From a virus, in the IMG/VR virus record IMGVR_UViG_3300025759_000462, positions 1 through 29,742 of that record: DNA of 29,742 nt, one strand, 5' to 3'. Both the position numbers and the translations under genes were made by a program. Shown here piece by piece: positions 9,868 to 15,545 of this stretch. The notes below the pieces were generated by a model. That model had not been told where the DNA came from. It ran no database searches and saw nothing but the letters and a program-made list of their open reading frames with translations. Each line of letters opens with the position of its first letter. Position 1 is the first letter of the stretch.

Positions 9868-10209
9868 TTAGAAACCGATACCAACTTCAACGTTTGCAGT
9901 AGTTGTACCTGAATTCCAGTTTACCCAACCATCAACAAAAACGTTTCCATTAAGATCCTTTGAGACACCGACATTAACACCCGACCAAGTGCTACCCACC
10001 ATTTCGTAACTTGTGTTACCATAAAGTTTGATGCTGCCAAAATTTTGCGCGACACCTACTGTAGGTGTAAAAGTGTTTGCAGAAGTCGTGAGGTTATGGT
10101 TATAGATTGCCGTTGCAGAGAACACGTTAGTGTTTCGGCCGAACATATCAGCAGAAGCGGAAGTTGCAAAAAGAGCCATTACAGCAGAAACGAAAGCGAT
10201 TTTTTTCAT
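9868..10209 (-). CDS. Small secreted beta-rich protein
   Basis: A 113-residue protein with a canonical signal peptide: KK, a hydrophobic core and TSASA before DMFG (cleavage about residue 20). The mature part alternates hydrophobic and polar residues (SIKLYGNTSYEMV, FVDGWVNWNSG, ANVEVGIGF) and ends in Phe, as outer-membrane beta-barrel strands do; at about 92 residues it is too short for a full barrel alone. The start has AAGGAAA upstream. It is directly downstream of the tmRNA and likely on the same transcript. A role in the host envelope is inference. Confidence 0.75.
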   Translation of the reverse strand: MKKIAFVSAVMALFATSASADMFGRNTNVFSATAIYNHNLTTSANTFTPTVGVAQNFGSIKLYGNTSYEMVGSTWSGVNVGVSKDLNGNVFVDGWVNWNSGTTTANVEVGIGF

Positions 10210-10242
10210 GTATATTTTCCTTAAATTGTAGATAAAAATAGT

Positions 10243-10624
10243 GGGCCCGTTTTTTCATCGCAGGGGAACCCATACTGCTAGACTTCTTTCGTTGGTCACG
10301 AATATCATTCTGTTTCTAGGTGATATCAGACCCAAGCAACTTAGGCCGCAAGGGCGTAAGCACGAGGAGCAAAATTATCGTTTGCCTTTAGTTTATTTGA
10401 CCGAATGTCGTAGGTCAACACGGTAAACTCCACTTCATCTTCACACCTGTCGATCCTATTTCGACCCCATCAAAGATACACTATAGCTTTTTTCCCTAAC
10501 GAACTAAGAACCCGGGGTAGTCTAGCGAGCCAGCCACGGCTGTTTTGTTAATAGTGTATCCATGGTGGAGTCGCTGGGTGCCGCCCCCAGGTCCAGAATG
10601 TGTCCACGTTGCTTCAACGTTTAC
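10243..10624 (-). ncRNA. ssrA: Circularly permuted two-piece tmRNA (alphaproteobacterial type)
   Basis: Transcription order is acceptor piece, spacer, coding piece, the permuted layout of alphaproteobacteria. The acceptor piece ends at 10563 with T-arm CTGGG/CCCAG, then CGACTCC, A, CCA. The coding piece begins at 10468 with GGGGTCGAAATAGGATCGAC, the typical tmRNA 5' end. Acceptor strands GGGGTCG and CGACTCC pair fully and include the G3-U70 alanine signal. The spacer between the two pieces is closed by a perfect 10-bp helix GATACACTAT/ATAGTGTATC, as expected for the precursor. A P2 helix (CAGGTGTG with CACATTCTG) joins the pieces. A pseudoknot stem TTGACC/GGTCAA precedes the tag frame. The 3' end of the coding piece near 10243 and the 5' end near 10624 are estimates. 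It would rescue stalled ribosomes and tag nascent proteins for proteolysis. Confidence 0.93.
10341..10385 (-). other. tmRNA tag reading frame ANDNFAPRAYALAA
   Basis: Starting from resume codon GCA the frame encodes ANDNFAPRAYALAA and then TAA. It keeps the alphaproteobacterial AND-N-F-A start and the ALAA ending read by ClpXP/ClpAP, supporting function of the RNA. Confidence 0.92.
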
Positions 10625-10630
10625 AGACTA

Positions 10631-10659
10631 TATATACAACAAAAGGAGCTGAATGTCAA
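10631..10659 (-). promoter_or_regulatory. Host-type promoter of the tmRNA
   Basis: TTGACA (10654-10659), 17-bp spacer, TATATA (10631-10636) on the minus strand. The predicted transcription start near 10624 coincides with the beginning of the acceptor piece. Confidence 0.85.
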
Positions 10660-10694
10660 CCCCTTTTGTAAAATTTTTTTACTCGACAAAAATG

Positions 10695-11660
10695 TCACAC
10701 TGGATTGATAATGTAATGTACCATTAGTACAAGAGCAACTGATGCGCCTAATCCTACCATCATTTTACCAAAATCCTTAGCAACCAATGGGAATACTGAT
10801 TTTGTTTTCTTCTTACCAAAGTATGTTGCCATCGCAAGTTCACGACCTGCTAACAAACCAACAAATACCCATGTAGTACTCATAGGAATATCATTTAGTT
10901 CTTTAAAGAAGTACAAACACATCCAATAAAAGAAGTCAATCAACGTAGCAGAACGAACATATCTTGTATTGTGTTTTTCCAAAATAATTTGTTGAATTTT
11001 CCCACCTTTTTCTCTAAACATAAAGAACAAGCCACCAACAAATACTATTGAAATGAATATCATTAAATCAATTGGTACTTCACGTGGAAGGAATACCGCA
11101 ATGTTGGCAATATCATGTGAAAGCCATGTGTACCATAATCCGGCAGTTGCTATCCATTGCGCAATTCTCCAAAACTTTTTGTTGCTATCACTCACTGGTT
11201 GTGTTTCATCAAACCATTTGTGCGCAAATTTATTAATAGCAAACCAAACAGCATAAGCAAAAACCGCCGCAACACCATAACCCATAATAGATTTCATTAG
11301 CATTTTCTCCAACACAAAAGTTGAAGCAAATACTGATAGAACTAAGAATGAGGTTGAAACTGGTACACCCATTCTTGTCAATGCTACAAGAACGGCTGGA
11401 GCCGCAGCATGATACCATTGTACTTCTTGCCACGGAATTTTATTTAATCTACCGAAAGATATGTCACCACCATTCATTGCCCACCCGTACCAAAGAGTAA
11501 CCAATAACACAGCAGATGCTGCACCCCAAAGTATTTTATAATTGAAACGCTCATTATTTGACGCGATCCACGTACCGAGCGTTTGTACTGAATCGTTTGC
11601 GATAACTGCATACGCAGCTAAAAGGAACCCCACGAGGCTCCATAGGGTTAACATTTCCAT
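10695..11660 (-). CDS. PiT-family inorganic phosphate permease
   Basis: A 321-residue polytopic membrane protein of the PiT/PHO4 family, which moves phosphate with a cation across the inner membrane. The two duplicated family signatures are visible: ANDSVQTLGT (about 21-30) and SHDIANIAVFLPR (about 182-194), together with the PVSTS (about 99-103) and IPMSTTW (about 258-264) motifs. About nine or ten hydrophobic segments can be traced. It is shorter than bacterial PitA (about 500) but near other compact PiT proteins. Start has AAGGAAAAC upstream. It stands alone between a terminator and the tmRNA promoter. Likely an auxiliary metabolic gene that raises phosphate supply during infection; phosphate as substrate follows from the family. 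Confidence 0.9.
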   Translation of the reverse strand: MEMLTLWSLVGFLLAAYAVIANDSVQTLGTWIASNNERFNYKILWGAASAVLLVTLWYGWAMNGGDISFGRLNKIPWQEVQWYHAAAPAVLVALTRMGVPVSTSFLVLSVFASTFVLEKMLMKSIMGYGVAAVFAYAVWFAINKFAHKWFDETQPVSDSNKKFWRIAQWIATAGLWYTWLSHDIANIAVFLPREVPIDLMIFISIVFVGGLFFMFREKGGKIQQIILEKHNTRYVRSATLIDFFYWMCLYFFKELNDIPMSTTWVFVGLLAGRELAMATYFGKKKTKSVFPLVAKDFGKMMVGLGASVALVLMVHYIINPV

Positions 11661-12434: not shown

Positions 12435-13685
12435 TCAAACCAGACGAACCAGGACGTGGCGTTTTTTACCTACAGACAGTTTGACGGTGTTGCGCAGATC
12501 ATCGGTAGATACCATCAAAGTTGCATCGGTCAAGACTTCATCATTCATTCGGGCGCCAGCATCAGCGATCAAACGTTTTGCTTCTTTGCCGGATTTCGCC
12601 AAACCTGACTGTACGATAAGATGAACAATCGAAATTGCCTCGCCCATTTCCGCAGCATTGATTATCGTGGTCGGCAGGTCATCGCCAATGCCGCCATTCT
12701 CGAACACTTCGCGAGCGGTCTCGGCGACTGTTCTTGCGGACTCTGCGCCATGGGCAAGCGTGGTGACGAGGTTCGCCAGCGTGATCTTGGCCTCGTTGAC
12801 CTCGGACCCCTTCAAGGCGCCCAGCCGGTCGCATTCATCGACCGGCAGTTCGGTATATAGCTTCAGGAACCGCCCGACATCGGCGTCGGTGGTGTTGCGC
12901 CAGAACTGCCAGAACTCGTAGGGACTGCGCATCTCGGCATTGAGCCAGACCGCGCCGTCCTGGCTTTTGCCCATCTTCTTACCGTCCGAGGTCGTCAGCA
13001 GAGGCGAAGTCAGCCCAAAGACCTCGTGATCAAGGATGCGGCGGGTCAGGTCGATCCCGTTCACGATGTTGCCCCACTGGTCCGAGCCACCCATCTGCAA
13101 GAGGCAACCGTAGCGGTTGTTCAGCTCCATGAAGTCATAGGCCTGCAGGATCATGTAGTTGAATTCGAGGAACGACAACGATTGTTCACGGTCGAGGCGC
13201 GATTTGACCGATTCAAACGACAACATCCGGTTAACCGAGAAATGCCGGCCGATATCGCGCAGGAAATCGAGATAATTCAACCTATCCAGCCATTCGGCGT
13301 TATTGACCATCATTGCATCAGAGACGCCTTCACCAAAGGTGATATAGTTCGAAAAGACGGTCTTGATGGCATCAATATTCTCATTGATCTGGGCTTCACT
13401 CAGAAGCGGCCGCTCGTCGGCGCGGAACGAGGGGTCGCCGACCTTGGTGGTGCCGCCGCCCATCAGGACCAAGGGCTTGTGCCCGGTCTTCTGCAGCCAG
13501 CGGAACATCATGATCTGAATGAGGCTTCCGACATGCAGGCTCTGGGCGGTCGCGTCAAAGCCGATATAGGCCGGAACCGCGCCCGAGATCAGCGCATCGT
13601 CGAGGCCCTGCAGATCGGTGCAATCCGCAAGGAAACCGCGGTTCTGCATTTCATGCAGAAAGTCGGATTTCACATGGGTGGTCAT
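12435..13685 (-). CDS. tyrS: Tyrosyl-tRNA synthetase
   Basis: A complete 416-residue bacterial TyrRS, class I, which charges tRNA-Tyr. The HIGH-type motif is HVGS (in [13 protein letters not shown], about 46-58), the tyrosine pocket is seen in YMILQAYDF and GGSDQWGNI, and KMSKS appears as KKMGKS (about 233-238). The C-terminal S4 RNA-binding domain is present ([26 protein letters not shown]). The start has AGGAACC upstream. It is the last gene of the hisS-ORF-tyrS cassette. GC content is far above that of the phage genes, with lower-GC stretches near its 3' end and around 13190-13400, pointing to transfer from an alphaproteobacterium. Confidence 0.96.
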
Positions 13686-13696
13686 GGTATGGTTCC

Positions 13697-13906
13697 TTAG
13701 TGTCTATGTTTATATTTGTAGATAAGTATAGCCCAAAAAATCAACATAGGCAACACAAATACAACAAACGTAGAAAAAACCATACCTAATGACCACAATA
13801 TAGATAACACCCCAATCCAAATCATTAAACTTGTAAAAATTGTAATATTTATCACAATAGCGTATAACGTGTGTTGGGTTTCTGCCCATTTAAAAAATTT
13901 ATTCAT
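13697..13906 (-). CDS. Small two-helix membrane protein inside the synthetase cassette
   Basis: A 69-residue protein with two strong transmembrane segments (about 15-33 and 40-62) and a basic C-terminus (YKYKHRH). It is AT-rich, unlike the GC-rich synthetases on both sides. Its ATG overlaps the hisS stop (TAATG) and its stop is 11 bp before tyrS, whose ribosome site follows at once, so the three genes seem translationally coupled. No family recognised; holin-like size and topology are noted but not sufficient for a call. Confidence 0.72.
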
Positions 13907-15477
13907 TAGATATCTAATACCTCTTCATTAACGTGATAAACATTAGTCCGCGCGATCATCTTGGCGACCTCGGTCACCAGATCGCCTCGTGCGATTTCCA
14001 TCTGCGCCGGCTGCGCCTTCCATTCCTCGTTGGTCTCGACCTCGGCCGCCAGCCGTGCGCCAAGCGCCAGATCCTTGATCTGGACAACGCCCCGCGCTTT
14101 CTCATCAGCACCTTCGATTACCGCGACCGGGCTCTCGCGTTTATCCGCATATTTCAACTGGTTGCCGAAGTTTTTCGGATTGCCAAGATAGACCTCGGCC
14201 CGGATCCCTGCACTGCGCAACTCAGACACCATCGCCTGATAATCCGCCATCCGGTCGCGATCCATCACTGTCACCACGACAGGCCCGGAGACGCTGCCGC
14301 CGATCCGGCCCTTGGCGCGGAGCGCAGCCAGAAGACGGTCGACACCGATGGAAACGCCGGTTGCAGGGACTTCCTGCCCGGTGAAGCGCTTCACCAGGTC
14401 GTCATAGCGGCCGCCGCCAGCGACCGAGCCGAAGCACCGCTTCCTGCCTTTTTCGTCGACGATCTCGAAGGTCAGTTCGGCCTCGAAAACCGGGCCGGTG
14501 TAATAGCCAAGGCCGCGCACCACCGAAGGGTCGATCACGATCCGGTCGGGGCCGTAGCCCTGCGCGGCGAGGAGGGCGGCGATCTGTTCGAGTTCGCGGA
14601 TGCCCTCGGCGCCGACGGTGGATGTGCCCACGGCGTTTCTTAGCCGGTCAAACGTCACCGACTGAATTTCACTCTTGGCTGTCAGGAAATCCATAACCGG
14701 TTCAACACAGTATTCAGGCAGTCCAACACCATCGATATATGCACCAGAGTTATCCTTCCGACCCGTCGTCAGAAGTTCCACTACGCCTGAGCGTCCAACT
14801 TTGTCGAATTTATCGATAGTTCGCAGGATGCCGACCTTCAATTCATCCCAGTCCGTATTGTCCGTTACTCGCTCAGGCACAAGTGAGCGCACGCTTTCCA
14901 ACACCCCATTCAGCACCTTGCGGTTATTCACCCGCACCACGTAATCGCCACGCGGAATGCCGACGGCTTCAAGCGTATCCGCCAGCATGGCGCAGACCTC
15001 GGCATCCGCCGCGACGTTGCCGGTGCCCACGGTATCGGCGTCGCATTGGTAGAACTGGCGGAATCGGCCCGGCCCCGGTTTCTCGTTCCGCCAGACCGGC
15101 CCCATCGCGAAGCGCCGATAGGGTGTCGGCAGATCGTTCCGGTGCTGGGCGTAGACACGGGCCAGAGGTGCGGTCAGGTCGTATCTCAGCGCCAGCCAGT
15201 CGCCGGGCCGTTCGCCCTCGGCTTCTTCCTGCCAGGCAAAGACACCCTCGTTCGGGCGGTCGACATCGGGCAGGAATTTGCCCAGTGCCTCGACGGTTTC
15301 CACCGCCGAGCTTTCCAGCGGGTCAAAGCCGTAGCGATGATAGACTTCGGCGATCTTGGCCAGCATTTCGGTGCGCTCGGTCACCTCGGTGCCGAAATAG
15401 TCGCGAAAGCCCTTCGGCGTCTCGGCGCTGGGATTTTCAAACAGGAAGACTTCGACCTGTTTGATTTGCGTTGTCAT
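13906..15477 (-). CDS. hisS: Histidyl-tRNA synthetase
   Basis: A 523-residue class II synthetase that charges tRNA-His. Seen: PKGFRDYFG (motif 1 region), [15 protein letters not shown], motif 2 [13 protein letters not shown], the HisA box [26 protein letters not shown] and motif 3 [13 protein letters not shown], followed by the C-terminal anticodon-binding domain. Phrases such as [34 protein letters not shown] are typical of alphaproteobacterial HisRS. I use the ATG at 15477, with GAGG about 10 bp upstream; an earlier in-frame ATG at 15510 lies inside the HAD gene. GC content is high except for 14640-14900. First gene of the cassette. Confidence 0.96.
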
Positions 15478-15494
15478 GGGTGCATCCTCATTTC

Positions 15495-15545
15495 CATCAA
15501 GCGGCCTCATGATATAGTTGTTCCCAGTTCTTTACAATATGTATA
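15495..15545 (-). repeat. Right copy of 51-bp direct repeat, end of the HAD gene
   Basis: Same orientation as 12347-12397. It supplies the last 15 residues and stop of the intact HAD-like gene ([15 protein letters not shown]). Most of the 8 differences between copies are synonymous or conservative in this frame. Confidence 0.85.

Follow-up and report, generated by a model that had tools for sequence, protein, structure and literature searches.

Is the RNA gene in a protein-free gap of this T4-like phage DNA a working tmRNA gene of the phage's own, and what is the segment that separates its two pieces? The window, by which we mean the whole 29,742-nt stretch analysed, is an IMG/VR virus record. 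An initial annotation, made from the letters alone, had put the gap at 430 bp and placed in it a complete permuted ssrA of alphaproteobacterial type. The gap measures 485 bp (10210-10694), and the gene is indeed there.

A two-piece tmRNA gene and its surroundings

The checks proposed at the outset, Infernal with the Rfam alpha_tmRNA model and ARAGORN in permuted mode, both gave matches, which together with a further Rfam model span both pieces. The permuted tmRNA called by ARAGORN runs from 10250 to 10657 on the minus strand (no strand had been given initially) and has the tag ANDNFAPRAYALAA. In the Rfam search, tmRNA_permuted (RF04321) scores 110.3 bits over 10624-10341 (model 1-213, gathering cut-off 47) and alpha_tmRNA (RF01849) scores 107.4 bits over 10663-10299 (model 1-355, gathering cut-off 50). 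Given the Rfam E-values of 6e-21 and 1e-28, and the compensatory changes found in 108 viral relatives, the match lies far above chance. Identities in the list below are to L203, a contig of a sister phage.

13906-15510, minus: full-length HisRS gene resembling those of Rhodobacteraceae; the best phage match covering most of it is ~31% identical
12435-13685, minus: TyrRS gene, adjoining the HisRS gene
10695..11660, minus: upstream gene, 321-aa polytopic membrane protein; missing at the corresponding place in L203
10669-10662 / 10646-10639, minus: 8-nt inverted repeat ACAAAAGG-N15-CCTTTTGT around the -35 (from sequence)
10631..10659, minus: promoter-like sequence, -35 TTGACA (10659-10654), 17 nt, -10 TATATA (10636-10631) (from sequence)
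10563..10624, minus: acceptor piece, 62 nt (ARAGORN, Rfam), 96.8% identical; contains GTAAAC (partner of GUUUAC in the coding piece), T-arm CUGGG-GGCGGCA-CCCAG and CGACUCC-A-CCA
10469..10562, minus: intervening segment (IVS), 94 nt, with the common 3' end UUUGAU; predicted absent from the mature RNA
10299..10468, minus: coding piece (ARAGORN, Rfam), starting GGGGUCGAAAUAGGAUCGAC..., then pre-tag region, tag frame and 3' hairpin; 96.5% identical; 3' end approximate
10341..10385, minus: tag reading frame ANDNFAPRAYALAA-stop, resume codon GCA (ARAGORN)
10301..10327, minus: 3' hairpin of the coding piece, GATATC-ACCTAGAAACAGAAT-GATATT (Rfam), its loop being the alpha consensus ACCuGGCAACAGAA
10210..10298, minus: 89-nt tail reaching the start codon of the following gene, 100% identical; possibly a leader or terminator region
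9868..10209, minus: next gene downstream, 113-aa protein with apparent signal peptide; conserved, 97.1% identical

The acceptor stem GGGGTCG/CGACTCC forms seven of seven pairs across the two pieces, including G3-U70, and a 10-bp helix without mismatches closes the spacer, pairing GATACACTAT (10560-10551) with ATAGTGTATC (10484-10475); both features had been described correctly. So had the tag as one of the phage's own: its frame is open from the resume codon to a hydrophobic, Ala-rich end, and it is unlike the ANDN[RK]AP... tags of sampled Rhodobacteraceae. The coding RNA had been expected at ~220 nt, and the coding piece is closer to 170 nt (10468 to ~10299). Only 19 nt separate the tag stop from the hairpin loop motif, against ~62 in Rhodobacteraceae, and the same spacing of 19-20 nt occurs in phages L018, L023, L038 and L047; compared with Rhodobacteraceae ssrA, the phage form is shortened downstream of the tag. 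Because of this shortening the window reaches 107 bits with RF01849 where Rhodobacteraceae tmRNAs reach 284-320 bits, and pseudoknots in that region may therefore have been lost.

The promoter had been called near consensus. This holds for the -35, which is perfect; the -10 matches at 4/6 positions, which explains why a consensus promoter scan did not list the site. L203 carries TTTACA-17-TATAAG at the corresponding place. The inverted repeat around the -35 is a possible operator, and L203 is without it.

The gene was rightly taken to be phage-encoded. Its neighbourhood contains a T4-like gp41 helicase, UvsX, RNase H, PhoH, Thy1 and a DruA-like PHROG, and both the tree and the sister phage described below agree. 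Distant blastn against 50,697 phage records gave no match to the tmRNA region. The 321-aa membrane protein encoded just upstream of the promoter matches nothing in Pfam, PHROG or NCBIfam; a resemblance to PiT phosphate transporters, seen by eye (IANDSVQTLGTW), is only a lead.

As hisS has ~60% GC in a window of 40% GC, and its best segment is 73-78% identical to Rhodobacteraceae HisRS, the phage host is probably a member of this family. The HisRS and TyrRS genes are both missing at the corresponding place in L203, so that the pair looks like an insertion. No SmpB gene lies within the 29.7-kb fragment; SmpB is present in three Rhodobacteraceae genomes, and the use of host processing and host SmpB is plausible. 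The gene may also compete with host ssrA or take its place, as initially suggested.

Phage ancestry and proposed function

We collected 108 viral tmRNAs by an exact 20-base motif, a choice that fixes acceptor positions 1-4. All seven acceptor pairs form in 107 of them. At the positions whose 3' side is free of search bias, the pairs across the IVS change in concert: pair 5 is G-C in 73 relatives, C-G in 20 and U-A in 13, and pair 6 is C-G in 80 and U-A in 27. The T-stem likewise covaries.

In the tree, 20 of 21 Rhodobacteraceae tmRNAs form one clade (support 0.999) containing neither the window nor any viral sequence, and the nearest neighbours of the window tmRNA are viral. This placement marks the gene as long established in phages, as opposed to newly copied from a host. 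A second contig, L202, has a tmRNA letter for letter identical to that of the window. L203, which shares further genes with the window, has the tag ANDNFAPRAYAIAA, one residue off, and a G-C pair in the 3' hairpin in place of the window's G.U.

Altogether, it is very probable that the phage gene in the window is functional and yields a two-piece tmRNA of alphaproteobacterial type, with an IVS that, because it would be discarded, is a permissive and exchangeable slot. One precursor, most likely made from the gene's own promoter, would adopt a fold in which the IVS closing stem stacks coaxially on the acceptor stem. It would then be cut by tRNA enzymes of the host, RNase P before GGGG and the 3' processing activity at CCA, yielding an acceptor RNA of ~62 nt and a coding RNA of ~170 nt. 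Charged with alanine by host AlaRS via G3-U70 and bound by host SmpB, the product would free ribosomes that stall in the course of infection, adding the tag ANDNFAPRAYALAA. The LAA end of this tag is similar to that of tags recognised by ClpXP.

Three other readings of the gene deserve consideration. The coding piece shortened after the tag (19 nt where hosts have ~62) and the low Rfam score would also be expected of a recently captured host ssrA copy, decaying and functionless in the phage. We judge this very improbable, since the window groups with viral tmRNAs and not with Rhodobacteraceae, its stems are all intact, the tag frame stays open in L203, and a matching stop-to-hairpin spacing recurs in four other phages. 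An anti-host decoy, titrating SmpB or host factors to stop host trans-translation, has a precedent in the role suggested for a molecule of mycobacteriophage DS6A that consists of the TLD only (PMC4131195; mentioned in PMC11915505). Yet a decoy has no need of an open, conserved tag or resume region, and complete tags, with ..LAA or a similar end, are kept in the window and in most viral relatives, so this role seems quite improbable. Doubtful, if somewhat easier to entertain, is a redirection of tagging in which truncated host proteins are marked for faster or different proteolysis and their amino acids recycled, as opposed to simple added rescue capacity. The idea was put forward for the phage Melnitz (PMC9004378), and ANDNFAPRAYALAA does differ from ANDNRAPVALAA-like host tags; however, with the C-terminal LAA retained the same protease is expected, and selectivity finds no support.

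The intervening segment as an exchangeable slot

Comparison with L203 reveals a natural swap. The mature pieces of the two phages are 97% identical, whereas their IVSs give no meaningful alignment. The IVS of L203 (98 nt) encodes a 27-aa membrane peptide, MYDLIFNKFYYVLLGILIGFTINAVFF, preceded by AAAGGA, with a stop codon that ends one base ahead of the coding piece. The window IVS, in which no ORF led by a Shine-Dalgarno (SD) sequence is present, was ruled out as a coding segment; its overall fold is no better than that of shuffles (z -0.87), the closing stem being the exception, and it is a non-coding hairpin. We rejected assembly chimeras as the source of these differences, in view of the identical tmRNA in L202 and of the recurrence of the L203-type peptide in L023, where 8 of 13 nucleotide changes fall at third positions.

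To count related phages we considered IVSs of at least 90 nt, and called a nested ORF qualifying when it was SD-led and filled at least 60% of the IVS; dinucleotide shuffles served as control. Among IVSs gathered by a coding-piece motif (112 distinct), 29 of 56 contain a qualifying ORF, against a shuffle mean of 1.4 (max 5 of 200). A second sample, gathered by an acceptor-piece motif (68 distinct) and overlapping the first at a few loci, gave 11 of 22 against a mean of 0.7 (max 4). No qualifying ORF occurs in the 55 IVSs of 60-89 nt.

Ten pairs of related nested ORFs have a pooled pN/pS of 0.22, the pairs having been picked by peptide family, which somewhat favours low values; third positions take 57% of the changes (p 4e-13). 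Single dN/dS values of nested ORF families are mostly 0.03-0.3. These patterns indicate purifying selection on the nested ORFs of the relatives, not of the window. In other phage contigs, moreover, homologues of several nested ORFs occur free-standing: that of L025, for example, is 65% identical over 69 aa to one in L022, and in L039, L101 and Melnitz free-standing copies of the family of L081 and L027 precede the tmRNA IVS by ~100 nt. Beta-type phage tmRNAs contain nested ORFs too (within L234-L259). Ten representative IVS proteins had no match in PHROG, and for two nested ORFs tblastn found nothing among phages. The IVS is thus a swappable cargo slot, which in many related phages holds a small, apparently undescribed protein gene, presumably translated from the uncut precursor or the released IVS. 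That these ORFs are chance frames in an inert spacer would fit the non-coding IVS of the window and the half of long IVSs with no qualifying ORF, but is extremely improbable in the face of the shuffle test, the dN/dS values, the third-position excess and the free-standing homologues.

The initial annotation had recognised the closing helix and missed the exchangeable, in relatives often protein-coding, nature of the spacer. ARAGORN called no tRNA gene inside 132 IVSs. By eye, hairpins resembling a T-arm adjoin the closing stem in the non-coding IVSs of L371, L394, L400, L046 and L087, which gives these segments the look of degenerate tRNAs. The 152-nt IVS of L410 contains a frame, ..CTHCKGWWSVATMEDWKPNKLYCTHCGKLCLF-stop, that lacks a clear start and would encode a peptide resembling a zinc ribbon.

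Across viral IVSs the closing stem has a median energy of -12.0 kcal/mol, against -4.4 for mispaired ends, and the ends pair in both coding (median -9.6 kcal/mol) and non-coding (median -14.0 kcal/mol) forms. The SD sequence therefore often lies within the closing stem, facing the last codons of the nested ORF. Roughly half of the nested ORFs take their stop codon from conserved tmRNA bases: among 51 coding IVSs, 16 stop at UGA, within the common 3'-terminal UUUGAU, and 13 at UAG, within the GAAAUAG of the mature coding piece, with several further ORFs likewise extending beyond the cut site. In the cases that extend beyond it, the message once cut by RNase P would be non-stop, and we hypothesize that tmRNA handles it. 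Taken further, the tmRNA precursor in many phages might double as the mRNA of a small, often membrane-bound IVS protein; where the stop lies in the mature tmRNA (UAG of GAAAUAG), maturation by RNase P would then generate a non-stop message and make the amount of peptide depend on tmRNA activity, much as with ArfA, so that the phage could sense when ribosome rescue is saturated or get around it. We offer this as a speculation that is more likely wrong than right by a good measure.

For comparison we took 71 bacterial permuted tmRNAs among the matches listed, deliberately enriched for long matches and limited to Alphaproteobacteria, because for a beta-type host control only one beta tmRNA scored above cut-off. 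In this set 69 IVSs are at most 70 nt long; the other two, of 104 and 125 nt, have no qualifying ORF. The longer belongs to a phage-like second tmRNA of Salipiger mucosus (L233, G026:C2:355616-356009; tag ANFNRAPAGALAA), which accompanies the normal host ssrA and comes perhaps from a prophage.

ARAGORN also calls permuted tmRNAs in Pseudomonas phage UF_RH6 (L321, 52745-53816), with matches in the related SM1 and PaMx31, and in Xanthomonas phage XacN1 (L320, 36729-37793); the stretches shown of UF_RH6 and XacN1 have no tmRNA feature annotated. The hosts of these two phages have a one-piece ssrA.

Relation to known systems

The window gene adds a probable Rhodobacteraceae phage of T4-like type to those carrying their own ribosome-rescue RNA. 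The exchangeable IVS carries more weight than the gene itself: a tmRNA gene serves as a cassette holder, with small phage protein families inside an RNA gene where annotation puts no protein. We found no earlier report, in the open-access literature, of protein genes in tmRNA intervening segments or of a swappable IVS with nested genes such as that suggested here.

With Rhodobacteraceae ssrA (RF01849/RF04321) the window shares the piece order, the G3-U70 acceptor stem, the T-arm, the resume region and the 3' hairpin loop. It differs in the shorter post-tag region, in an IVS of 94 nt where theirs are mostly 22-48 nt, in its tag and in falling outside their clade.

A 2025 database paper, which counts 79 phage tmRNAs (PMC11915505), describes tmRNA genes bearing inserts: one form has a group I intron, and single permuted-tmRNA IVSs contain a tRNA gene or a repetitive element. 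There, too, extra sequence is removed on maturation; the IVS inserts are a tRNA gene or a repeat, whereas many of the phage IVSs analysed here appear to hold protein genes, which the paper's passages on intervening sequences do not mention. The E. coli arfA mRNA lacks a stop codon and is repressed by trans-translation (PMC10107115). Its likeness to several of the nested ORFs is one of logic only, in that the cut message would be non-stop; there is no sequence relation.

Two-piece tmRNAs in phages as such are already known. They were reported in 2022 with the Methylophilales phage Melnitz (MZ577097), together with 53 two-piece structures in phage genomes (PMC9004378), and the window is a further example, reduced 3' of the tag. 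Like the window, Melnitz is a T4-like marine phage with a promoter-near, permuted alpha-type ssrA for which the host would supply the rest. Its host differs from the Rhodobacteraceae host proposed for the window, in which, unlike Melnitz, no riboswitch was found by the Rfam search. The IVS of Melnitz is 141 nt long and contains an SD-led ORF (MFKWLSK...PKYLSG...), that of the window is 94 nt long and non-coding. In the Melnitz record the tmRNA is annotated over this ORF, with no CDS there, and the available text of PMC9004378 makes no mention of a protein gene in the IVS. As Melnitz is in culture, its IVS ORF makes the proposal directly testable, and with it the question of why phages carry tmRNA.
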